A stretch of DNA of 64,000 nt from Anas platyrhynchos (taxonomy: Eukaryota > Chordata > Aves > Anseriformes > Anatidae). Of the stretch, positions 12,901 through 42,159 are shown one piece after another. The stretch is from positions 20,680,001 through 20,744,000 of the forward strand of contig NC_092593.1 in the NCBI RefSeq assembly GCF_047663525.1, in the 5' to 3' direction. A program made the translations under genes and the position numbers. How positions within the stretch are numbered: the stretch's first letter is position 1; each line of letters opens with the position of its first letter. The notes under the pieces were generated by a model, which saw only the letters and a program-made list of their open reading frames with translations, made no database searches and was not told the origin of the DNA.

Positions 12901-15900
12901 CTTTTCACTTTGCTGCTTTGTGCAGAAAGTGGTTTGGGGATGGGGGGTTGCCTTTAACTGATTCTGCGTTGGTGTAGATTAGATAAAAACCTGTAAACCT
13001 TGAATTCTTTGGCTGCAGTAACTTACTATAACTTGTAAAATAGGCTAATGCTTTCGGTTAAGATTGGTGTGCTATGTTAAAATTCATTCCTTTGACCTGC
13101 AGCCTGTTCTAAGGCCTTAAAAGTTGTTCTAAAATATACATTGTTTCCTTGCCAAAGAAAACAGACTGTTCAGACATTAATATTTATTTTGGTGTAGTTT
13201 TCTTCTGTTTAATGTTGAAGGTTCAGTTTCTTCTGTCTGCAGCTGTACTGTTAGTGTAGTTTGATAAGATGTCTTTGCAGTTTCCAATGGATATATAAAA
13301 AAAGACTTGATGCTAATAAGAAAACTCTGGAGTAGTAGTCCATAAACAGCTAGTGTGCCCTCCTGGAGTTCTGGCTAGGACTTCTGATTTTGTGGATTAA
13401 GAGTTTATGGGAATTTCTTAACACATTGGAGAATGTTCATGCCATTTAATTAATTTACCTAAAGTGTGTTGACTCAGAAGCCCAGACTTCCTGTAGTGAA
13501 GTTCTTAAAGTACTTTTTTATGGTTATATTTTTTTTTCAAATTATCACAACTGACATACTTGCATCTCTTTTAATAGTCTCAGATCAGTTAGAGGGCGTA
13601 AAAAGCTGTGTGTGTCCCTGTATTATTTCCTGCTGGACTATTATAAGGTCCAATGAATGAGGGTCCAATGAATAAGGCCCTCGAATGAGGGTGGAAAGGC
13701 CTTGCAGAGGGATCTGGATAGGTTGGAGAGCTGGGCGATCGCCAACCGCATGAAGTTCAATAAGAGCAAGTGCCGGGTCCTGCACCTGGGACGGGGAAAC
13801 CCTGGCTGCACGTACAGACTGGGCGATGAGACGCTGGAGAGCAGCCTAGAAGAGAGGGATCTGGGGGTCGTGGTAGACAGCAAGTTGAATATGAGCCGGC
13901 AGTGTGCCCTGGCAGCCAGGAGGGCCAACCGTGTCCTGGGGTGCATCAAGCACGGCATCGCTAGTAGGTCGAGGGAGGTGATTGTCCCGCTCTACTCTGC
14001 GCTGGTGCGGCCTCACCTCGAGTACTGTGTGCAGTTCTGGGCACCACAGTATAAAAAGGACATGAAACTGTTGGAGAGTGTCCAGAGGAGGGCTACGAAG
14101 ATGGTGAAAGGCCTGGAGGGGAAGACGTACGAGGAACGGCTGAGGGCACTGGGCCTGTTCAGCCTGGAGAAGAGGAGGCTGAGGGGAGACCTCATCGCAG
14201 TCTACAACTTCCTCGTAAGGGGGTGTCGAGAGGCAGGAGACCTTTTCTCCATTAACACCAGCGACAGGACCCGCGGGAATGGAGTTAAGCTGAGGCAGGG
14301 GAAGTTTAGGCTGGACATCAGGAAGGGGTTCTTCACAGAGAGAGTGGTTGCACACTGGAACAGGCTCCCCAGGGAAGTGGTCACTGCACCGAGCCTGACT
14401 GAATTTAAGAAGAGATTGGACTGTGCACTTAGTCACATGGTCTGAACTTGGGTAGACCTGTGCACTGTCAAGAGTTGGACTTGATGATCCTTAAGGGTCC
14501 CTTCCAACTCAGGATATTCTATGATTCTATGATTCTATGATTCTAAGGTTGCTAGTAAATTGCTCATTTGGAGCTCCAGTTGACAAACCAAGAACTGGTG
14601 ACTTGTGTAATTAAGAAATAGCCTGCTCTTTAGCTGGGTTCCTTTCCAAACCGGATGGCTTAGTAAGCAATTCCTATCTTTCTGCAGAAAAACGTGTAAA
14701 ACATGCTGAGCTGGGGGATTAGAGTTGTTCTCTGAGCATCATTTCACGTAGTAGTAAGGTTGGTTATCTGAGTCTTCCCTCTGTTGGGCTGACTTTAATG
14801 GGTAATCAGTTCAGTGTATGCTAAACTAGTATCTCTTTTGTTTTAAAACTTCCCTTGTTGGTGGTTTGAGTAGCTTTTATATCAAGTCAGATTACACCTG
14901 AAGTAATTTATAAAAAAAAGTTAAAAACATTTAGATTTTTAATTATTCTTCATACATAGGTGATGTTATATAAAACATCATCTGTAAACATACACAGCTA
15001 TACAAATTTTTGACAGTACAAATTTAGTACTTTAGATCTTCTTCATAGGCATAAAATGTTTGAAACTTTTCTACCTACTTCCAGACACATGCTGTGTTTT
15101 GCTTGGGAGAAAGTATTTTTCCAAAGTTGATTTTTCTGAGATGTATTTATAACTGTTTGATATCTAAATCTTTGTTGTTCTGACTTATAGCCAAGAAAGA
15201 AGAAAAGAAAAGACACAAGTCGTCTTCCTCATCCAGTGACTCGGAAAGTTCAAGTGATTCAGAATCATCTTCGGATTCATCATCGGATTCTGAGAGTGCT
15301 TCAGAAGAGAAATCGAAAAAACGAAAAAAGAAACACAAGAAAAATTCTAAGAAACACAAGAAGGAAAAGAAAAAGAGAAAGAAGAGCAAGAAAAGGTCTG
15401 TATTGAGATCTGTGTGTATGCTGTGTGGTGTAATTTTCTCTTGTAGCTACACAAAATTGTGTTCCGTATCTAGTGAAGTAGACAAGTTTAGTTGTTTTTT
15501 TTTTTTTCCTGATTTGATGGTAAAGGACAGTGTCCGTGTACAAACATGCTGCAGCTTGTAAAGGAGTGAAAGAATGGACCAAGAATTTTGCATACTTTCC
15601 AAATCGAGTTGTGGGAATGCTTGGACTGAAGTGGTGGTTGTGGTGATAGCTTGTTTACCTAAATTCATTTCTGTACAACTCAATGTACATATATCCAGTG
15701 CGACTTAGGAGAATATAGTTTTGCTTTTATTCTCGTATACTAAACAAAATATTACAGATAAACATACCACTAGTTCTGTGTAATATACTGAAAGTCTTGC
15801 AGTTTCACTGGAAGATGATAAAACTCAGTCTTTTGCTTCTGAAAGTGGTATTTCTAATCTAATAGTTTGTCTTTCAACATGAGATAAAGCTGTGTCAGTC

Positions 15901-28560: not shown

Positions 28561-30350
28561 CATAAAACTGACTTAAGTCTTCTGTATTACTCTTGCAAGA
28601 GGCTTTCCATTCTTGCTTTTCAGGAAGGAAAACTGTGAAGAACAATGAAATGTTACCAAAATGTTTTGTCACTAAAAATTCTAGAACCTCAAGTTAAGTC
28701 CATGATCTAAAAACACTTCTTTGCAGTTTTACAGGGATCACCAACTAGAGTTAGTCATTTAAAGCAAGCACACAAAGCATATGTATCTTTGGAAGTCAGT
28801 AGTATGTGATCAATTCATGCCCTTTTTTTTCGTGCTGAACGTGGTCAAATGAATCAACACTTAGTGCATTTAGAAAATACACAGGATTCCTACTTCACTT
28901 TATGTATAGTGAAAGGAAGAATTGTTTCCTGGTGGCTGAGTTTGGTATTTCTGTAGATGCTCAAAGTGAAAGGGGTATAAGGCCCGTGGAAGCAGGCTGT
29001 AGATTTAGAATGCAATCTACAGAACAGGGCTTTTTTCTTTAAAAAGCTGAGCAGGAAGTGAGGCTGCAATCCACCTTGCTTCTTGCTGCTGTGGAAGTAG
29101 ACTAAGACCCATTTAACTCACCAATTACACAGTGGTCAGCACATGCAAATGTTCACTTAGCGATGCATTTGGAGCATTATCAAGCTCTGCAGACTTCCAG
29201 CATAACTCTTACTGTAGTCAATGATTCTTCTTAAGGCTTCAGCTTTGCCATCCAAAAGCTTTAATAAAAGTTTGCATTGTTTGCTTGCTGGAAAGAGTTT
29301 GAAGTAATAAAAGAGCACTGGCTCAGAAAGAAGGGAAATAAATTTTTCATTAGTGAAAAAAAAGAATTTAGAGACTATTTCAGAAACTAATTGCCATGCC
29401 CTCTTAAAAAATAATTTCCACTCAAGTCAATTACTCAAATATAATTGGAAAGAACCCTGCATGACTTTTAGCTAATAGTGCAGCTGTGCTAGCATTTGTT
29501 CAGATCAGAAGAGAGTTTGAGATAGGTCTTGATTGTTCCTACTTACTGTGCTTTTGTTCACATTCTGGAGTGATCACAAACTAGATCCTTTTGGATAAAA
29601 CTTCAAGATGTGCTCCTACCAGGATGGGTACTGAGCCGCAACACCAGCTGAGCACTATTCTGGGCAAGCTGCCCCAGACATGCATGCGCGTCAAGTTCTC
29701 AGTAGCAGGGTCCTCGGTCCACAAACAGGGCCTGTTTGGGCCACGCTAATTGAAGTGGGTACAGAGCATCAGCTGCACCTAGCCAGGCACTGCTGTCCAA
29801 AAACGGCTCAGCAGCCCACACCACACCAGGTCTGAGCACTTGAGACAGCCCTTGGGTCTGTGCCAGCTTTGAGGAAGTCTTGGCCCTGTTCTCAGGCAGG
29901 GCTTTGAGGGCCGTGCAAGCTGCAGCACTCCCACACAGTTCCAAGCATTCACTCAGCGTGAGTGAGATGAGAGCTCATATACGTTTGTAAGGAGGAGTGG
30001 GGATAGTGTTATACCAACCAACCTTCCCCTCATACACTTTTTATTTTAATGTATATTTTATGTAGATTTACTTCTCCACTTCTACAGGTGTCTATTTAAC
30101 TGAAACTAAATTTGTAGGTCACTAGCTGATATTTCACAACATCCCTACTGCATAGCTTCCATGTTCTTTCAGAATTTTCTGAAGCAGTAGTTCAGCTGAG
30201 TCCTGACAGTATCCTGTGCTATCTTAGAGAGAAAAAAGGAGAACTAAAATCTGCTTAGAAAGCCCACATCCACATTGTTTTCCCTCTTTGGACATTTGGA
30301 CAGGATAATAAAAGTTGTGTGTGTTCATGGCATTCAGTTACTTACTGTCT

Positions 30351-33300
30351 TTATCTCCAAAATTTTTGCTCTTTACAAAAAGCAGCCTCTCTCTGAGCAT
30401 CATAATCCAAATCCGCTTGTTTTTCCTGCTCTTTTTTTGCCTTCTTTTCTGCCTGAGAAAGAAGACAGAATAACAAAGCTTTTTGTTTTACTTTGCTTTT
30501 TAAAACACCTTTTGTAACATGTATTGTGAATTCATATCACTTTCAGCACTAGAAGACATGGAAAAATGCAAACAAGTTTCCACAAAAACAGCATTACCTT
30601 ATACAACACCCCTTGAGAAGAAAGGCTTTGTATGACCAGCTCCCACACTGGGACAGTGACGCCACATGGACTTGAAAAATGGGGTCACAAGCTCAGGGGA
30701 AATTCAAATGCAGAAGGGGGATCTGCATTCCTGAGTGGGGTCTCCTGAAGCCATAGCTGCTAAGGGCTGATCTCTTATCGCCTGCCCTTCCAGGTCATCC
30801 TCCCTGACCAACAAGGGTTGAGAAAGCCCAGAAGAGACTTCTGTGCCACTGCTGAGATGTGGCTGGTCCCAATGCCAACATCTGCAGAGCATACAAGATT
30901 AACAAAAACCACAGCATGCTTCCTCTCCTAGCCCCTCAGCCTCTCATACTGTTGCTTTAGATGCATGCTACTTTCTGAAGGGGCTGACAGGGTGCAGCAC
31001 TTCTATTTACCATCTGCTGGAGCTGAATCTTCTGTACTTCCACACTTGCATCACGTTGTCTCTGTTTCTTGGCTTCTTCCCCTTCCAAGTAGATGCGGTT
31101 CTTTTCCATGAATGCATGGCATTCTTTTTCATTTTCTGCTTTATCTTCTATCTCCTTCTCCAGTTTCATCTTCACCTGAATTTTACACAAGAGAGGTTAG
31201 CCAAGTAGCTACCCTGCCAGTTTGAAGAGTCATGTATCGCCACCAGCCATTCTGCAGGCCAGATACAAAAGCAATGATGATGCAGCCCTGTATCAGCACT
31301 CGCTGGTAAGCACAATCATCGTAGCTGGCCAGTGTCCAAGCCCCGAGTTTCCAGCAGCACCAACAGATGTGTGCCCAGCATGAGGTGGGAGAGGGAGAGA
31401 GGACCCCAGGAAGATGTCAGCAGACCTGATGCAGCATGCTGATCTCTTGCAAGAGGATCTTCCCACGTGCCACTTACACCCAACTCCTTAAGCAAGTTGC
31501 AAGTAAGAGGCAGCTGCTAAGTGAGAACATGCACAAGCATCCCACTAACAATTGCTATGCTAAAACCCACAATGTATCTAAAAGGTATTTGGAAGGATAG
31601 GAGAGAAAGAGGGATAAGAATGATTTATTATTTTTTTACCACGGTGGCTCTGTGTTCAGCAATAGATTCAATGGCAGCCTTATTTTTTGCTTCTCTCTCT
31701 TTGGTTTTCATTTGGTATTCGTCTTCTACCTCTGCAGCTCCTCGAGCAAAACGTTCAGCTTCCATCCTCAATGTCTGATTCATCTGTCCAGCTAGTTGTT
31801 GAAAAGCTTTGTCCTGATGCTCTTGAACTAGCCTGCAGTAGAACATGAGCTACCATAACATACCAGCATATCCAATATATGCTCAGCTTATCTGAGGCAC
31901 TGCCCCAACTAAAGCCAGCAATCCTGCTTCCACCCTTCTATCTTCTCTTGCCACAGAGGCCCACCCATTCAGCTCTTTGACATCCTTTTACTGACGTGGC
32001 AAGTAAGCACTCCCTATTTTTTTGGCATGCTTGCTTTTTGTCGCTATAGTGAAATGGATCACACAGGGAGGAGTCCACCTAACCCACTGTCACTGCAGGC
32101 AAATGCTGGGAGCATTGGCTGGAAGCAGAAAGCAAAGGGTGCTTGTTGCATTGGCCCTCTCAGCTACACAAGTAAACAATATTTCTTCTATTACTGTAAG
32201 AATATTAATACTGTTGCCTAGTTAAGTCAAACATGTTCCTTCTTTCTCAGAGAAAGACAGGCAACACACTGATGCAGAGATTTGCATTTCAGCATCTAGG
32301 CAACTTGAAGGCTTGAGAGTTTACCTACCCCCCACAGCACCAATTTCTACTAAAACATAGGGTTTCAGCTGAATTGTCTACTTTTTGTTAAGTTCTACTC
32401 ACAGAAAACCTTCTTGCATCAGTTTGGATTTTGCTGATGTAAAAATTCACAGTAACATTTGTCACAACATTAAGTTGAATCTTAACACTGAAAATACCTC
32501 AACCTACCTACTGGTCTCTGCATCTGCTTCTCTTCTCAGATCAGCCATCATTTCTTTTCCTCTAATGTAAGCCCTAATCCGATCATCATCTTGGTCTTCT
32601 CTTTGTTTCTCTTCATCTTTAATTACTTTCTGTTCAGCTACATGCTCCTGTTTAAATAGAAAATAACTACTATTGTCACACAGAATGAGATTTTAGAAAT
32701 ATTGAATGGTTAAGAAAAATCTATCAGAGACTTCACGCCTAAACTATCATAGCAGTTCTTTGATTGTACTAGCGGAGAAGATACTGAACAGAAACAGATG
32801 GAAGAGAATAATCAGGACCCAATTATCTCAAGCAGCTCTTGGGGGAAGGAGGTACAGAGAAGGGAAAGATAGGTGTGGTGAGTAGGTCTTCACAAGTTTT
32901 CTAAGCATCTCTAATCAGAAAGAGAAAGACATGGAAAAAAAAAAAAAGTCATGTTCACAGACTCAGACTACTCCCTCCTCCTGACCAGGAAAAATGGGCT
33001 TAAAACAGAGTAGGTACATGGAATCGAAATCCAGGTATCAAGCCAAGAATACTCCCTGATGTCTACAGCAGACTTTTTCATTGTAGTCCAGTTAAAGTTC
33101 AGGTGTCACATCAGGACTTTCAAGAGGCCCTTCCCAAAAACAGACAAAAGAAAGGCCTATCCTGCAGCTCTCAACATCGGTATGCAACTTAACACTGCTA
33201 ATGAAGCTACCAACAAACCTCCTGTTGCCATCAGGCCCGTTTATCCATCACCCTAATACAATTGTTTCATTCTAGACACCTACAGTGAAGCAAGCACCGA

Positions 33301-34165
33301 ACTCTCTGACTTCCTGTTACTTACATGATGCTGCCTCTGGAGTTCAAGTTTTTCCTCCTGTTCATTTTCCCTTCCTCTCTGAATTTCCAGTTGGTACAAC
33401 TGGTTGAGCCTTTGTATTTCTTCCCCTTCTCTTCTGGTTTCCAGCTTGGCCAGCTCTGCCTGATGCTTGTGTTCCTGTATTCTGAAACAGGCAAGGAATG
33501 GAGTAAGTGGGCTGGGGATTCCGGGACGTGAGCAGGTCGGGATCCTGCATGTCTGCAGGTACCTGAGCACGGAACAGCCCGGTATTTTGAAGTGAAAGTA
33601 GCGCATCGGACCAAAATACAACCACGGGTTTTTAAGTGGTGGCTGCAAATCCTTCCGCCAGAGTTGACTTCTGGCATAAAGAAGCACTGAGAAATTTCCC
33701 AGTTAAGCCAGTACTAGCAAAAGCAAACACGACCAGCAGATGGGTTTGAGTAAGCGATCCCATTTGAGCATCTCAATTGTCAGCCCCCTGCCCGCACGAG
33801 TCCGGCCTTTCCCGGCTAGCAGCGAGCTGCCACCTCCGCGCAGTGCCAGCACTAAGACAAAGCGCGGCCCTCAGCCCACGCCGGCCGCACGGATGACTTA
33901 TTATGGGCTGGCAGAAGCGGCGAGCACGCGGTGTTTTGCCACAGGGAGCCCACGGCGCGGGGAGGGCCCGACTGGAGCCGCGCCCGGAGCCCCGCTCCCC
34001 GCTCCCCGCCGCCCGCCCCGGGCCGGGCTCGGTCCCGGTGCCGGTCCCGGTGGCGGCCCCGACTCACTGCGCCAGCTGCTCCCTGGCCACGGCCCGACGC
34101 TCCGCGTAGCGCCCGCGCTCCCGCTCCGCCTCCCGCTCGGCGGCGCCCGGTTGCTGGTGCTCCAT
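30351..34165 (-). CDS. CFAP210-like protein, tandem truncated paralogue of CFAP210
   Basis: Six exons on the minus strand join in phase into 855 nt, 284 aa: 34165-34068 (start exon), 33481-33325, 32647-32508, 31832-31640, 31175-31011, 30452-30351. Exons 2-5 have exactly the lengths and phases of CFAP210 exons 5-8 (157, 140, 193, 165 nt). All borders are GT/AG. The product is an Arg/Glu/Lys-rich coiled coil: MEHQQPGAAEREAERERGRY, then IQEHKHQAELAKLETRREGE, ending in CKEQKFWR. It lacks the CFAP210 N-terminal 220 or so residues and ends about 70 residues earlier. The start exon lies in its own CpG island and matches the end of CFAP210 exon 4 (RYAERRAVAREQLAQ against RYMDRQAICRDQLEQ). No break was found, so it looks functional. 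A role inside ciliary microtubules is inferred from its parent. CFAP210 exon 4 could also splice to 33481 in phase, so a shared transcript is possible. Confidence 0.75.
30602..31703. repeat. Near-identical tract, downstream copy (CFAP210-like gene)
   Basis: Matches 36000-37101 in the same orientation at an offset of about 5398 bp. It runs from the intron before the last exon, through exon 8 and the next intron, into the 3' third of exon 7. I counted 7 differences in about 407 intron bases on one side and 2-3 in about 464 on the other, but 11 in the 165-base exon. Outside the tract the copies are visibly diverged: exon 7 loses similarity abruptly after the part encoding EAKNKAAIESIAEHRATV. Confidence 0.9.
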
Positions 34166-34510
34166 CGGCGGCTGCCTCCGCTACCGCCCGGCTCGGCCCG
34201 GCCCGTCAGGGAAGCGGCGCTGCCCGGCGAGAAGCGCCCAGAGCGCGGCGGGAGGCTGGGGCTGGGGCTGAGGCGGACACGGCTCCTGGCAGGGCGGGAA
34301 GAGAAAGGAAGAGCAGGGCGGCGGCTCTGGCAGCGGCCTTACAGCGGCACCGCCCCGGCCCGGCCCGACGGCTGCTGACGGCCCCGGGCGGCCCGGCCCC
34401 GGGGAGGAGCGCTGCGGAGGGTGGGGGAGCGCTGCCCCCGGCCGGCTCCGCGCCCCCGCCCCGTCCGAAGCCTGCCTCGGTCAGAAGCCGGGCTCAGAGT
34501 CTCGAAGGCA
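33780..34510 (-). promoter_or_regulatory. CpG island over the start exon of the CFAP210-like gene
   Basis: Very GC-rich and CpG-dense, in contrast to the AT-rich flanks. It covers the predicted start codon at 34165 and the first donor. The matching place in CFAP210 (exon 4 and its flanks, about 39.1-39.3 kb) is AT-rich with no island. It is the only promoter-like sequence between CFAP210 and its paralogue. Confidence 0.7.
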
Positions 34511-35375
34511 CCCACGAGGCCGGTTTTCCACAGTAAAATATTATCAGGCACCCTTTTTAGGAAACTCTCCTAACTTCTTAGAGCTTGCGGCATTCCCCGG
34601 TTTGGCCCGGAGAGCTGGGCGGCAAAGGCCGGCTGAACCACAGCTCGCACCACTGTCGGTCTGTCTGAAAGGCTGCCCAAACCGCGCTGTTTCTTGTTGC
34701 CACAGTGTTTTTGCAGTAGCTACTTACAGCTATATTGGGGTGTATAATGCCTTTTAGATGACCTTTAAGGGCTGCGACCAAACCACGTTCATATTTTCAC
34801 ATAACTGATTTACAGCAAGGCATTAATTTTATGGAGGTGGTTGCAAAACACTATAAAAACTGCAGTACTATAAGTATTCTAGCTTCTGTGTGTATTTAGC
34901 TGCTCTTTCTTGTCCTGCAGGTTCTGTAAATGTTTTATTTATTTTTTCTTTATGGGGAATACTGAACTGGAAATAGGCTAGTGAATAGTGTGACTTTTTG
35001 CACCTGTGTAGGGAATTTGTATTGCATTAGTAGCCCACAGGGCTGAAAAACCTGGGACAGTGAATTTTTAGAAAAATCATAAAAACGTAGCAGCAATAGT
35101 GAGCCTTTGGCGGGAATGGGTTCTGTTGACCGTCAGTTCTATGTAACACACTGCTGCCTCTAGTTAAATAAGCCGACTTTCATGAAATACAAGCTAGTGA
35201 CTTTTGAGAATACACTCAATTCTCTGGTATTTATTTTTTCAAATGTCTTCCAGATTCGTAAGATATATTTAATATAGATCTGTTTGCAGTCTTGACTCTG
35301 CCCATAACGTTCAAAAAGGTATTTTTTTAACCACATGAAAACTATTCTGTCTTTCCTTGCTGTATAGTCTCAGTG
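34166..35375. other. Spacer between CFAP210 and its paralogue
   Basis: Contains the upstream part of the CpG island (to about 34510), then AT-rich sequence with the likely CFAP210 3' UTR. TTTATT at 35230-35235 (AATAAA on the minus strand) lies about 140 nt past the CFAP210 stop; two more lie at 34934-34943. No gene is seen. Confidence 0.6.
35230..35235 (-). terminator. Candidate CFAP210 poly(A) signal
   Basis: AATAAA on the minus strand about 140 nt downstream of the CFAP210 stop codon. Confidence 0.4.
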
Positions 35376-38300
35376 TTATTTCATATTTTTATCTTCCTGT
35401 GCAGTAGTACAGCTACAAGCAGGTAACTGGGTCTCAGCAACATCCTGTTCGTGAAAACTAAGATTTATTCCTTTGCTTCCTCTGGAAAATGGCCCACATC
35501 CAAGTCCTGTTATATTTCTGGATGCTTTGAGGAGAGGATAGAGATTGTGTGTAGTCTTGGACTCTGATTCAATAACTTGCTTGGCATACTTCTGAAATTC
35601 ACGCTCCCTACAAAGTGCAATAAGCTGTTTCTGAGCATCGTAGTCCAAGTCTGCTTGCTTCTCCTGCTGTTTTCTTGCTTGCTTTTCTGCCTGAAGAAGA
35701 AAAGGGAATGACAGCTTGGTATTTCTTTCACAACATAACAAGCTGTGGAGTCTTCAAGAGGGTACATTTACAAGACATTTGAAGTAATGCTAAGTAGTTG
35801 ATATTTGTCAAATAACATCCCTCCCAAGTTCTGTTCCACACTCACCACAAAAAAAGAAGGGGTACATTGAATAGCTGAGTGAATATCAGCATTTGCTGCT
35901 GCTCTTTGGTAATCTGCCCAGAAGATACAAGAGACCAGCAGCAATACATAATAACACAGGACAAGAAGTGATGTGTCATTGCAAAACAGCCTTGACATGC
36001 ACAACACCCCTTGAGAGGAAAGGCTTTGTATGACCAGCTCCCACACTGGGACAGTGACGCCACAAGGACTTGAAAAATGGGGTCATGAGCTCAGGGGAAA
36101 TTCAAATGCAGAAGGGGGATCTGCATTCCTGAGTGGGGTCTCCTGAAGCCATAGTTGCTAAGGGCCGATCTCTTATCACCTGCCCTTCCAGGTCATCCTC
36201 CCTGACCAACAAGGGTTGAGAAAGCCCAGAAGAGACTTCTGTGCCACTGCTGAGATGTGGCTGGTCCCAATGCCAACATCTGCAGAGCATACAAGATTAA
36301 CAAAAACCACAGCATGCTTCCTCTCCTAGCCCCTCAGCCTCTCATACTGTTGCTTTAGATGCATGCTACTTTCTGAAGGGGCTGACAGGGTGCAGCACTT
36401 CTATTTACCATCTGCTGGAGCTGAATCTTCTGTACTTCCACACTTGCATCACGTTGTCTTTGTTTCTTGGCTTTTTCCCCTTCCAGGTAGATGCGGTTCT
36501 TTTCCATTAATTCATGACGTTCTTTTACACTTTCTGCTTTATCCTCTCTCTCCTTCTCCAGTTTCATCTTCACCTGAATTTTACACAAGAGAGGTTAGCC
36601 AAGTAGCTACCCTGCCAGTTTGAAGAGTCATGTATCGCCACCAGCCATTCTGCAGGCCAGATACAAAAGCAATGATGATGCAGCCCTGTATCAGCACTCG
36701 CTGGTAAGCACAATCATCGTAGCTGGCCAGTGTCCAAGCCCCGAGTTTCCAGCAGCATCAACAGATGTGTGCCCAGCATGAGGTGGGAGAGGGAGAGAGG
36801 ACCCCAGGAAGATGTCAGCAGACCTGATGCAGCATGCTGATCTCTTGCAAGAGGATCTTCCCATGTGCCACTTGCAACTTGCTTAAGGAGTTGGATGTAA
36901 GTAAGAGGCAGCTGCTAAGTGAGAACATGCACAAGCATCCCACTAACAATTGCTATGCTAAAACCCACAATGTATCTAAAAGGTATTTGGAAGGATAGGA
37001 GAGAAAGAGGGATAAGAATGATTTATTATTTTTTTACCACGGTGGCTCTGTGTTCAGCAATAGATTCAATGGCAGCCTTATTTTTTGCTTCTTTCTCTTT
37101 GTTCTTTTTTTCTTCTTCAGCTTCTTTTTTTGCAATGTCTCTAGCAATACGATCATCTTCCATCTTCAATGCTTCACTCATTTGGGCAGCCAATTGGGTA
37201 ACAATTTTGTCCTGACGTTCCTGTGTTAGTCTGCAGAAGCACATGAGCTATTGTAACATACGCACCTGGTCTACCTGAAGCATTGCTGCTACCAAACCCA
37301 TCAGTCTTCTCTTCCTGCCACACAGCTTGCACTTCTGTAAATCTTTGTACTTTGAAGAGGGGAGAGGTGACACACACACATAGACCTATAACTAATGAAC
37401 CTGTGAAAGAACTTCCTTTTTGTCCTGAATTCTCCTCTTCCCTATGAGTAGAATTTAATTATAGAATAACTGTGATTTTTTTTTGTTGTTATATCATCAG
37501 CTTGAAGAACTTGAATGTGACAACTGTATAATTCTTAAGTTTGATACATTTGATACTCAAACTTTGTACCTACCTACGCATTTCAGCTTCCTTCTCTTTC
37601 ATCAGCGTGGCAATCCTTTGCTTTGCTTTGAAATGAGCTCTAATCCGATCATCTTCTTCCATTTCTTTTTGTTCCTCTGCTGCCTTGATTATTTTCTGGT
37701 CAGCTACATGCTTCTGCATAGGCAAAACAGTCCTGGTATAACAGATGAAGTTCAGAAAATCTAGGCCTTTGGCTGCAACTTAAAAGAATCACTTCCTCTT
37801 CTGTTTTCTTTTCACATTTTTTCAAAGAGAGCAGAAAGGAAGGGGATTCTTCTTCTTATGGCTCAAACATGCATGAAGGAGATGGTGGATAGGAGAAAGG
37901 AGAAGGGGAAATGAGCATTAAACAGCTACTCCTCCAACCCATTATGCAGGTCAGCATGCAATGCAGGGAGCATTATCCCTCGCTGCCATCCACACACGTG
38001 GGAGAGGGGAATGTAGAGAGGAATGGAACTGCGTAACCCCACCAATACTTACACAGACTGTGCTACTCCTGGCCCACCTCATCCAAAACTATCCCAGTTT
38101 GAGCTTAATCCAAATCCTAGCTGACGAGGAGTTTTCTAGAGTTCTATGTAAAAAAATTTACTGTCTTTTGCATGCTGGCCAAAAGCGTTGTGAGGCGTGT
38201 CTGGTTTGCATTTAGCAAGGTGCCTTTGAAGGTGAAGAGGGAGGGCAGCAGATCTTGACAATTTTCTAAACATATCTAATCATAAAGGGAAAGACAAGTT

Positions 38301-40915
38301 AAAGAGGTATTTTCATGTTCACAGACTCAGACTACTCCCTCTTCCTAACAAATGAAAATGGGCTTGAAACAGGGCAGGTACACGGTACCCAAATGCCGTT
38401 TTCAAGTCAAGGAGACTGTTCCTTGATGTCTACAGCAGACCTTTTCATCATACACCAGTCAGAGCATCAGGTGCTGATGTCACCCCTTCAGACAAGAGAA
38501 GGGACTTCCACCCAAGAGGCCCTTCTCAAGAGCAGACAGGGAAGACATGGCCTGCAACCAGCAATGTGACCTAACATTGGTAAAGTTGTCAGCAAACCTC
38601 CTGTTGCCAGCAGGCCCACTTAGATAATATTAACGCTATTGCTTCACTCTGAGAAGACAAGGTAAAACAAGCATTTTGAACTCTCTGCTTTCCTGTCACT
38701 TACATGATACAGCTTCTGGCGTTCAAGTTTTTCCTCATGTTCCTTTTCCATTTTTTTCTGCATTTCCAACTCATACAGTCGACTTAATCTCTGTATTTCT
38801 TCTCCTTCTCTTTTGTCTTCTAGCTTGGCCAGATCTGCCTGACGCTTGTGCTCCTCTATTCTGAAACAAACAAACAAAAAAAAAGGGTTAAAAAAATGGG
38901 TTAGGGACCAAGTGAAGTAATGAACAGATAGAGATTCTGCTTGCCTATGAAATTTAAAAAAAAATCTGACATTTTGAAGTGAAGTTGGGTATATTGTCAG
39001 ACGTAAAGAACAGCAACATTGTGTGCAACTTTCTGTAAAACCTTACAGGATGTATTTGTGAGAAGAGAGTTTAAATACATAATTAATCACAAGTAACCCT
39101 ATTTTACTACTACTTACTGTTCCAACTGATCTCTGCATATTGCCTGTCGATCCATATAACGCTGATGTGCCTTTTCTTGCTCTCTGAGAATAGCTTCTTT
39201 ACGCTCACGTTCTGCTTCTTCTTCCTTCTTTTTGTTAACACTTGGCTTGAACTTTTTAAATTCAATTTGAGCATCTCTTTCCTTTAGGACCTCAGTAAGT
39301 AGCAGTGCACTCTACAAAAAAACATTTCAATTAATTTGCATGTTCAGAGTGTTAAAAGAAATTCAATACAATTTTAATTTAAATATTTTAAGTTGTCAAC
39401 AAACATGCAACCCCTTCACTCTTTCATTCTGATAGTATAGGTAAGTTTTTGCTTGATCAATAGCTTCCTTCCGTTTTGCTGCTTGGAACTGTGCTTCTTC
39501 CAAATCAACTTTCTTTCTTTCTTCCTCTTCCTTTTCTTCACGTAATTTTTTGGCTTTAAGTTTCCTTTGTGCCTGGCCCTATAATGCAGATAAAAATTCA
39601 CTTTTTTAGAAGTCACATTCAAAACTATGGAATAAAAAATGTATAAACCATTCTGAAGGTGATGAATCACTGAGTGATTTTTTTTTTTAATTTTGCATCT
39701 TAGGTTTAATTTGACAATTAAACTATTTATACGTAGCTTAGTTAAAATACATATTTAAAAGCAGATGTTAAACTAAGGGAATACACCTAGAAATATTGTT
39801 GTGTTTTTGCCTACATGCATCACCTAGTTTACAGATGTGTCTTGTATTTACCATAATGGTATTGGGCCAGTCTTTTACAGCCGCTTTGGAGCGTCGGTGC
39901 ATTTCCTCACGTTCTTTCTTCTCAGCAAGGATGCGTGCTGCTTCCCTACTAATGCTGCCAAGATTGTCCTGCATCCTTTCCCATTCCGCTTTTGGCAATA
40001 TAATTACTTGACGGAGATCTACTCCATTTGGAAGAAAACATCCATCCAGAAGACTATTTTGTACAGAACTGTGCAATGCTAGGTAGAGGGAAGAAAAGAT
40101 ACTGAGGTTACTTGGAATCACAAAATCCTAAATTCAAACCTGCAGCAGGATTTCAGTCCCTGCATATTATCAGTACTGAGTCGTCCTGACAATAACTCTC
40201 CCTGTCCCAGTACCCCAGAGCTGTGATGGCCGATCTGTGCCTGTGTTCTGAGTGCGGGCAGTGTGTGTAGTTGGGCCGTGGCGCTGAGCAGTGTAACTGT
40301 GCGCGTCCCTGTACCCGTGTGTGCGTGCAGGTTCGGCCTGTGGTAGCTGATGCCTCGCAGACGGTATTTGGCCATGGGGGCCAGGAAGCATTCCCGGCAG
40401 GGAACGACTGGGGAATGGCGCTGCAGGTGGTGCTGGGGGTGGGTGCGGCAGCAGCGGGGGCGCAGGCCGTGCCTCGCCGCCCCTCTCAGTGCGCGCCCTG
40501 CACCTCCTGCAACACAGCGGGCGCGGCAGAGCAGTGCCTTGAGCCGCTGGCAGGACGCGCAGCGCCTTGTGTCGGGCGCACACACACATGCGGGCACTCC
40601 CACAGCCGCCAGGTCACCGCCGCGCTTCGAGCAGCGCCCTGTGTGTCCCCAGCGGCACTCCCGAGGGGAACGGCGCCGAGCTGCGCGCTGCCAGCGGGGG
40701 GTGCCCAGCCACGGGCGGCCGCGGCGTTCACCGCGGGTCGCGCTGCTGCTGCTGCTGCTGCTGCTGCCCTCAGCCCGTTTCCAGCCGCGCTGCCTGGGGG
40801 ACCCCGCCTCGCTCCCGCTGCCCCCGGGTAGGACCCAGGGACGCGCCCAGCGCCCCGCGCACTCACGGGGCAGCCGCCCCCTCCCGCTGGGCCGCCCGTG
40901 CCGCGCCGCCGCCAT
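35376..40915 (-). CDS. CFAP210: Cilia- and flagella-associated protein 210 (CCDC173)
   Basis: Filamentous microtubule inner protein of ciliary doublet microtubules by family knowledge. Nine exons join in phase to 1614 nt, 537 aa (human about 550 from memory): 40915-40867, 40078-39852, 39578-39405, 39311-39118, 38860-38704, 37713-37574, 37230-37038, 36573-36409, 35690-35376. The start codon is set by the 49-nt first exon in the CpG island (MAAARHGRPSGRGRLP), whose phase fits the next exon (VDLRQVIILPKAEWERMQDN). The rest is one long charged coiled coil with landmarks VKGLHSALLLTEVLKERDAQ, IEEHKRQADLAKLEDKREGE and ADLDYDAQKQ. The exon 3 donor is GTTTGT, below consensus. PHOSPHO2 starts 518 bp away on the other strand. 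Exons 5-9 are tandemly duplicated downstream. Confidence 0.92.
36000..37101. repeat. Near-identical tract, upstream copy (CFAP210)
   Basis: Partner of 30602-31703. The sharp edges at both ends inside a more diverged tandem duplication fit gene conversion better than a second duplication, because the spacing equals that of the neighbouring duplicated exon 7. Confidence 0.9.
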
Positions 40916-41330
40916 GTCCCGGCGCTGCCGCTGTTGCCGCGCAACCCGGCGGCGGGCGGGGCTGGCGCGGGGCGCCACGGGAGCGGCGGGGCCGGGGCCG
41001 GGCCTGGGCCTGTCCCCTGCGGGCCTGGCCGCGCCTGGCGGAGGGGCCCTGAGGCGGCGTTGAGGCGGCCCCGCCCTGCCCCGCGGCGGCAGCGCTGCCC
41101 GGCTGCGGGAGCCCCGCTCGGTCGCGGTGGCGGTGGCGGCGCGGGGCCCGGCCGGTGCCGCAGCGCGGCTCTGGGATGCGGCGCCGGGCCCGGAGCTGCC
41201 GCGAGCTGCCCGCCTCGGCCTCGGCCTCGGCCTCGCGTCCTGGGGCTGGAGCGGCCGCAGGCAGCGCCCCCAGGTTGTGTGCTTGTCGTAGCGCCCTGCC
41301 CTCGCGTCGTGTTTGTCACCTGAGCACAAG
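40440..41330. promoter_or_regulatory. CpG island, bidirectional promoter of CFAP210 and PHOSPHO2
   Basis: Dense CpG and GC boxes lie between divergent start codons at 40915 (CFAP210, minus) and 41434 (PHOSPHO2, plus). CFAP210 exon 1 lies in it. The non-coding first exon of PHOSPHO2 must also be here, since an acceptor precedes its coding exon, but I could not fix its donor. Confidence 0.75.
40742..40767. repeat. (GCT)8 trinucleotide repeat
   Basis: Eight perfect GCT units plus two bases, inside the CFAP210 side of the CpG island, within intron 1 of CFAP210. It does not encode part of either gene. Confidence 0.9.
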
Positions 41331-41433
41331 ATCGGGGTAGGAGCTGAGTAGTTTCTTTTATATAAGTATTTCTCTTTTTTTATTATTATTTTTTTCTTTT
41401 CTTGTTTGTTCTGTAAACCGACCCTGGGCAGCT

Positions 41434-42159
41434 ATGAAATTCCTGTTGGTTTTTGACTTTGACCACACGATCGTAGATGAAAATAGCGACACCTGGATCG
41501 TGAAGTGTGCTCCTGGGAAGAGGCTTCCTCATGGACTGAGAAACTCCTACCAGCCGGGGCACTGGACCGAATACATGGGCAGAGTGTTTGTCTACCTGGG
41601 AGACAGCGGTGTCAAAGAGGAGGAGATGAGAAGGACTATGACAACGATCCCTTTCACCGCGGGAATGGGAGATCTTCTGCGTTTTATTGGCGAGAACAAG
41701 GAGCTTTTTGACTGCATAATTGTTTCAGACTCTAATACCGTATTTATTGACTGGATTCTAAAAGCCGCTGACTTCCATAAGGTGTTTGATGAAGTGTTTA
41801 CAAACCCTGCAGCATTCAGCAGTACCGGCTACCTAACTGTGCAGAACTTTCACGCTCACCATTGTCCGAAGTGCCCTAAAAACCTTTGCAAAAGGAAAGT
41901 TTTAAAAGAATTCCTAGATAAACAGTTGGAGCGAGGAGTAAGTTACACACAAGTTGTATATATAGGTGATGGTGGGAATGACCTATGTCCGGTAATGTCT
42001 CTGAAGAAGAATGATATTGCTATGCCCAGGCATGGGTATACCTTAGAGAAAAGGATTTCTCAGCTTTCCCAAGATCACAGTCCTGTAGAGTGTTCTGTTC
42101 TGGTTTGGTCAACTGCTGTTGAAATAGCGTCTTATCTGAAGCTGCGTATAAAGGAATAA
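41434..42159 (+). CDS. PHOSPHO2: PHOSPHO2, HAD-family phosphatase
   Basis: Single coding exon of 241 aa, the same length as the human protein from memory. HAD motif I is FDFDHT with nucleophile D8 and acid/base D10 (human has DNT at this place), motif II lies in CIIVSDSN, and the late motif GDGGND binds Mg2+. The protein belongs to the PHOSPHO1/PHOSPHO2 family; the mammalian enzyme prefers pyridoxal 5'-phosphate. The Cys-rich segment HHCPKCPKNLC is typical of the family. A splice acceptor ends at 41431, two bases before ATG, so the 5' UTR is spliced from the CpG island. In human, transcripts reading through from PHOSPHO2 into KLHL23 are known and the same order is kept here. Confidence 0.96.
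   Translation: MKFLLVFDFDHTIVDENSDTWIVKCAPGKRLPHGLRNSYQPGHWTEYMGRVFVYLGDSGVKEEEMRRTMTTIPFTAGMGDLLRFIGENKELFDCIIVSDSNTVFIDWILKAADFHKVFDEVFTNPAAFSSTGYLTVQNFHAHHCPKCPKNLCKRKVLKEFLDKQLERGVSYTQVVYIGDGGNDLCPVMSLKKNDIAMPRHGYTLEKRISQLSQDHSPVECSVLVWSTAVEIASYLKLRIKE

Follow-up and report, generated by a model that had tools for sequence, protein, structure and literature searches.

The analysed window comprises 64,000 nucleotides (nt) of the Anas platyrhynchos genome (contig NC_092593.1, positions 20,680,001 to 20,744,000 of the forward strand) and contains, on its minus strand, a full-length gene for the ciliary protein CFAP210 (35376..40915, in window positions) and a shorter second copy of this gene (30351..34165), which begins about 1.2 kb behind the stop codon of the first and probably represents an old, fast-evolving and functional CFAP210 paralogue, as judged from its sequence. 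The full-length gene consists of nine coding exons (40867-40915, 39852-40078, 39405-39578, 39118-39311, 38704-38860, 37574-37713, 37038-37230, 36409-36573 and 35376-35690), which form an open frame of 537 codons with GT/AG borders at all introns. Residues 1-378 of its product match four solved mammalian CFAP210/CCDC173 chains (phmmer, E 6e-83 to 2e-70), which we take to be bovine, human, porcine and murine, the porcine assignment being the least sure, and a TPH domain was identified with Pfam (68 bits). As expected, a search of viral contigs yielded no relative of the full-length protein.

The short copy comprises six coding exons with an open frame of 284 codons, GT at all five donors and AG at all five acceptors. 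Its first exon (34068..34165) corresponds to the 3' end of exon 4, from which it has diverged, and contains a new start codon; it is followed by copies of exon 5 (33325..33481, 124 of 157 nt identical), exon 6 (32508..32647, 97 of 140 nt), exon 7 (31640..31832, 148 of 193 nt), exon 8 (31011..31175, 165 nt) and the beginning of exon 9 (30351..30452), which carries an in-frame gap of 3 nt and an early stop codon at 30351-30353. These pairs with full CFAP210 exons were compared exon by exon, as a joint alignment of both genes misplaces exon 6. A preliminary description of this DNA had proposed a partial tandem duplication with a conversion tract that yielded a second intact-looking gene, and this proposal is supported: exons 5-8 are present twice with the same lengths and phases, exon 9 is present twice with the downstream version shorter and diverged, and the start, the end and the junctions 34068/33481 and 30452/31011 given there are at the right positions in the sequence. 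The intron stretches 32945-33100 and 38315-38470, which it had described as alignable, do align, in one block of 105 nt (81% identity) and another of 52 nt (79%). The match between the two copies as a whole is far beyond chance, with blastn alignments of 1282 columns at 93%, 640 at 73%, 151 at 73% and 84 at 81% identity.

Two points of the preliminary description required revision. The first exon, which it had regarded as the copy's own start exon, derives from exon 4, as 10 of 24 residues are identical in an alignment anchored at the splice site, where both exons share the same splice phase, and none of 20,000 shuffles scored as well. The intron behind it shares with intron 4 only a 13-nt exact match, which is weak evidence (score 26, against a best score of 25 in 500 shuffles), and no relic of exons 1-3 was detected upstream of the short copy with tblastn. 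Furthermore, the product had been described as only the C-terminal coiled coil of CFAP210; this is wrong, as the alignment places the short copy in the middle of the protein, with about 183 N-terminal and about 70 C-terminal residues both absent. In a gap-free alignment, its residues 10-281 pair with positions 198-469 of the CFAP210 chain 7ung_o (phmmer, E 1e-29), and residues 1-279 match the Pfam family TPH (PF13868) with 53.7 bits at a cut-off of 27. CFAP210 is the closest solved relative: of the five distinct solved sequences with E <=0.001, four carry the name CFAP210 or coiled-coil domain containing 173, and the fifth is the TPH protein 8snb, which we take to be from a sea urchin. Over 245 aligned residues, the predicted short protein has a net charge of -11, compared with +2 for the full copy.

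The first exon of the short copy lies within a CpG island (33701..34700, G+C content 0.71, observed/expected CpG ratio 0.90), which is probably the copy's own promoter. This island bears on the alternative that the downstream exons are 3' exons of the full-length gene, which would then be a single gene with two C-terminal halves. The location of both exon sets on one strand at a short distance would fit such an arrangement, as would the entry phase of the exon 5 copy, which would allow exon 4 of the full-length gene to splice to 33481. Yet the downstream set has, besides its island, a start exon homologous to exon 4 itself, and the full-length gene ends in a terminal exon of its own, followed by AATAAA signals at 35235 and 34943, before the short copy begins, so that we consider a single gene very improbable.

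Behind the early stop codon, sequence homologous to the rest of exon 9 persists in decayed form (30150..30350). Its local alignment score exceeds those of all 2000 dinucleotide shuffles in two of three scorings, and in the third 79 of 2000 shuffles reach it. In each of the 12 alignment settings, this region contains gaps that are not divisible by three (for example in the series 5, 3, 5, 2 and 7 nt). As the frame is intact up to the stop codon and broken by gaps beyond it, constraint seems to end at the stop. A donor-like motif just behind it (ACA|GTAAGT) was considered as an alternative splice route and dismissed, since the stop codon comes first and the motif could act only in the 3' untranslated part.

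Divergence between the copies is interrupted by a tract of about 1.1 kb (30610..31694) that is near-identical to 36008..37092 of the full-length gene and includes the last 55 nt of the exon 7 copy (31640-31694); 44 of the 45 differences in this exon pair fall at 31704-31832 of the short copy. In windows of 60 columns, identity drops to 67-74% on one side of the tract and, beyond a window at 82%, to 46-56% on the other. From this profile, the tract was recently homogenised by gene conversion. It is a patchwork of ages, with seven differences in 162 nt of far intron 8 (30619-30780) and none in the 230 nt adjoining exon 8 (30781-31010). Intron 7 also contains a 31-nt micro-inversion (31473-31503, corresponding to 36871-36901) with CTTAC/GTAAG-like inverted ends, which shows one difference when compared as reverse complement and 15 in direct comparison.

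Besides the micro-inversion, 20 single differences separate the two versions of the tract, and 11 of them lie in exon 8, which thus forms an island of divergence within homogenised sequence. None of 100,000 random placements put at least 11 of the 20 differences into this exon, although the test takes sites as independent, an assumption that conversion tracts break. Exon 8 differs at 11 of 165 nt (seven replacement and four silent differences), compared with 2 of 665 nt in intron 7 and near intron 8 (Fisher p 8e-7); this flank was picked after the data had been seen, which counts against the comparison, and with a wider flank reaching through intron 8 to 30610 the contrast is 11 of 165 against 9 of 836 (p 8e-5). 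Silent sites of exon 8 are also raised relative to the adjoining intron (4 of about 28, against 2 of 665; p 3e-5), which suggests mainly older differences that escaped the last conversion, rather than later change. The same observation led us to reject positive selection acting on this exon since the conversion. At codons for conserved amino acids, exon 8 shows silent differences in 2 of 42 cases, compared with 24 of 87 in the unconverted exons, so that it does not appear to be as old as the rest of the copy. Seven of its 55 residues differ between the copies: at R205I and K230E (short-copy numbering) the full copy agrees with all four mammals, and at E217A the short copy does so.

The island could have arisen by chance, from two separate conversion events that ended on either side of exon 8 in the absence of selection. 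The patchwork structure of the tract is compatible with such a history, and the low number of silent differences at conserved exon-8 codons suggests that the exon may itself have been converted earlier. Set against this are the coincidence of the spared stretch with a coding exon and the outcome of the placement test, with its assumption of independent sites. We regard chance as a serious competitor that is nevertheless the less probable account, and favour selection against converted exon-8 haplotypes as the most likely reason why this exon stayed distinct.

The age of the duplication was assessed outside the converted tract. In a protein tree of seven sequences (the two window copies, the four mammals and the TPH row of 8snb), the two copies pair with a bootstrap of 85-90, and the branch of the short copy is three to four times longer than that of the full copy. 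Silent divergence ranges from about 0.3 to 1.2 depending on the estimator, the codon model giving a dS of about 1.2. At substitution rates reported for birds, the duplication would not be young but at least tens of millions of years old. The preliminary description held that it is not as old as vertebrates, which is favoured by the pairing of the copies but falls short of proof, as older splits are also compatible with the approximately unbiased (AU) test (p 0.09-0.17). A duplication that predates the split of birds and mammals, was lost in mammals and owes its young look to conversion would agree with this test and with the high codon-model dS. Such an origin is nonetheless improbable in our view, given the best tree and the state of intron 5, which lies outside the recent tract and is still alignable: its two copies (32850-33324 and 38220-38703) are identical at 330 of 454 aligned nt (73%), with 12 gaps and a Kimura two-parameter distance of 0.35. 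As this distance is lower than the silent divergence of 1.2 from the codon model, intron 5 may have undergone an older conversion.

Outside the recent tract, 132 of 501 coding nt differ between the copies, yet the short copy has no stop codon within its frame, no frameshift and no lost splice site. This is difficult to reconcile with a decaying pseudogene whose frame stayed open by luck and by conversion that replaced damaged stretches with sound ones. In neutral simulations with 0.15 changes per site on the lineage of the short copy, no stop codon arose in 637 of 20,000 runs at a transition/transversion ratio (kappa) of 2.8 and in 874 of 20,000 at a kappa of 4.7; with 0.10 changes per site, the number was 1781 of 20,000. 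Under neutrality at 0.15 changes per site, the probability that none of the 14 splice nucleotides outside the tract had been lost is 0.12. The absence of insertions and deletions has a probability of 0.0013 if gaps arise half as often as in intron 5, and of 0.0001 and 0.007 at two gap rates taken behind the stop codon. Taken together, these results make neutrality unlikely, the underlying rates being rough. The ratio of replacement to silent substitution rates (dN/dS, omega), for which the preliminary description had called, was 0.28 for the copy pair under a codon model, and an omega of 1 was rejected (twice the log-likelihood difference, 2dlnL, 14.3); this part of the comparison speaks for constraint, whereas its strength varies with the estimator. 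The Nei-Gojobori method (NG86) gave 0.32 on 171 codons and 0.28 on 167 codons; for the latter set, 288 of 20,000 bootstrap replicates reached the bound set by a neutral short copy. Prolines are absent from the aligned part, which is weak evidence because 10% of the neutral simulations were also without any.

Several observations weigh against a short gene under selection. An omega of 0.5, the value for a pair in which the short copy is neutral and the full copy frozen, is compatible with the data (2dlnL 2.7-3.3). Where both copies encode the same amino acid, their codons differ silently in only 24 of 87 cases (19 of 65 at twofold sites, 5 of 22 at fourfold sites), so that the short branch may have an omega close to 1. 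Pairwise dN/dS alone was for both reasons rejected as proof of selection. The short copy retains the residue of the full copy at 46 of 72 sites shared with human and at 52 of 99 other sites (p 0.16), and at 29 of 49 sites shared with the four mammals and 69 of 122 others (p 0.86). The preliminary description had suggested that the product could compete with CFAP210 in some cilia or sperm; this idea is conjectural, and such free change at family-conserved sites counts against the short copy simply substituting for CFAP210. Moreover, its start codon has a pyrimidine at -3, and in one scoring scheme (4 of the 12 alignment settings) the in-frame gap before the stop codon is split into gaps of 1, 4 and 1 nt. 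An RFX X-box would be a sign of ciliary regulation, and the absence of an X-box-like motif from the island of the short copy could be held against it as well, yet is judged to count neither way: a loose pattern has 78 matches in the window, of which one lies in 40700-41500 and none in 33900-34600, and the strict pattern has no match anywhere in the 64 kb.

A pseudogene would account for the long protein branch, the lack of preferential retention at conserved sites and the tolerated omega of 0.5, and conversion, on which it depends, clearly occurred. It is at odds with the rejected omega of 1, the frame-breaking gaps behind the stop codon and the CpG island over exon 1, and we consider it unlikely. 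In our reading of the sequence, selection preserves the frame of the short copy, while the demands on its amino acid sequence would be strongly changed or relaxed.

We therefore propose that an old partial tandem duplication, from within exon 4 to beyond exon 9, gave rise to a second gene that gained a CpG-island promoter, a start codon in former exon 4 sequence and a premature stop codon in exon 9. Selection would have kept the frame open and the splice sites intact, while the protein sequence evolved three to four times as fast as in the full copy. Conversion would have homogenised parts of the gene, most recently the 1.1 kb around exon 8; the centre of this exon stayed distinct, most likely because selection acted against converted exon-8 haplotypes. 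To this explanation as a whole, in which the short copy is a selected CFAP210 gene, we assign a probability of roughly 60%. The short gene could be transcribed in multiciliated cells or spermatids and encode a helical TPH protein able to occupy the tubulin groove of the CFAP210 middle part, and may be a functional, hitherto undescribed form of a structural component of cilia or sperm tails. No description of a short CFAP210 paralogue was found in titles and beginnings of abstracts retrieved from the open literature by gene name; genome annotation databases, which may hold an automatic 'CFAP210-like' entry, were outside the scope of this search.

Published structural studies suggest what the loss of both ends could entail. 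In mouse sperm, the N-terminal elbow of CFAP210 crosses protofilaments B07 to B09, which makes room for CFAP52, and the remainder of the protein lies between B06 and B07 (PMC10663601). In trypanosomatids, the C-terminus of CFAP210 binds CFAP106B (PMC7617938). The same study names CFAP210 as one of three core filamentous inner proteins that help to set the 48-nm period of doublet microtubules. Knock-down of FAP106 in T. brucei led to loss of FAP45 and of a FAP210-like density, from which the authors suggested that binding to tubulin is comparatively weak and that stable, periodic attachment depends critically on FAP106 (PMC10460401). The short protein would lack both the elbow around CFAP52 and the C-terminal contact with CFAP106/ENKUR, and could thus be a CFAP210 variant that resembles a fragment and is not tied to the 48-nm register. 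If present in cilia, it would be expected in the groove between B06 and B07 with no fixed register, or else at places that lack CFAP52 and ENKUR. A more speculative extension, which we hold to be doubtful, is that birds or a larger archosaur group possess this second gene as a register-free middle fragment that provides a second kind of B-tubule lining in cilia or sperm flagella and is kept functionally distinct by selection that opposes ongoing conversion at exon 8. If true, such a long-lived variant without docking ends would show which part of CFAP210 suffices to line a protofilament groove, and the exon-8 peak would add a structural protein to the paralogue pairs in which selection is seen to oppose gene conversion, and would name candidate residues.

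Upstream of the full-length gene, a second CpG island (40201..41400, G+C content 0.73, observed/expected CpG ratio 0.88) separates it from a plus-strand gene of the Pfam family Put_Phosphatase (303 bits), which starts at about 41.4 kb; the island is probably a two-way promoter of the two divergent genes. The neighbouring gene is PHOSPHO2-like, and no solved relative of its product was found. Additional genes in the window encode a BTB-Kelch protein (KLHL23-like) and a UBR-box protein (UBR3-like), as identified with Pfam; the gene order resembles the human one, and the short copy would lie between PPIG and CFAP210. In addition, an open frame of 257 codons is present at 13672-14445, to which no Pfam family was assigned and which we assume to resemble the reverse-transcriptase end of a CR1 retrotransposon.

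The short copy shares its TPH coiled coil with CFAP210 (CCDC173, FAP210), a filamentous inner protein of ciliary doublet microtubules with a 48-nm repeat in the B-tubule near protofilaments B06-B09, and differs from it in the absence of both ends, a more acidic composition and faster evolution. The N-terminal part with the elbow helix is absent because the frame starts inside exon 4, and the C-terminal part because an early stop codon is followed by decayed sequence. Inner-protein paralogues that alternate along the doublet have been described for CFAP106A/B and RIB72A-D of trypanosomatids (PMC7617938); those paralogues were placed by cryo-electron microscopy, whereas the short CFAP210 copy, predicted from sequence, is truncated. 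A close parallel is the red/green (long/middle-wavelength, L/M) opsin pair of catarrhines, which also lies in tandem. In both pairs, conversion has made introns alike and divergence peaks in a coding exon; for the opsins, the peak at exon 5 is read as the result of selection against conversion (PMC3924837, PMC3213168). The opsin pair differs in that its exon differences have a known function and population data.

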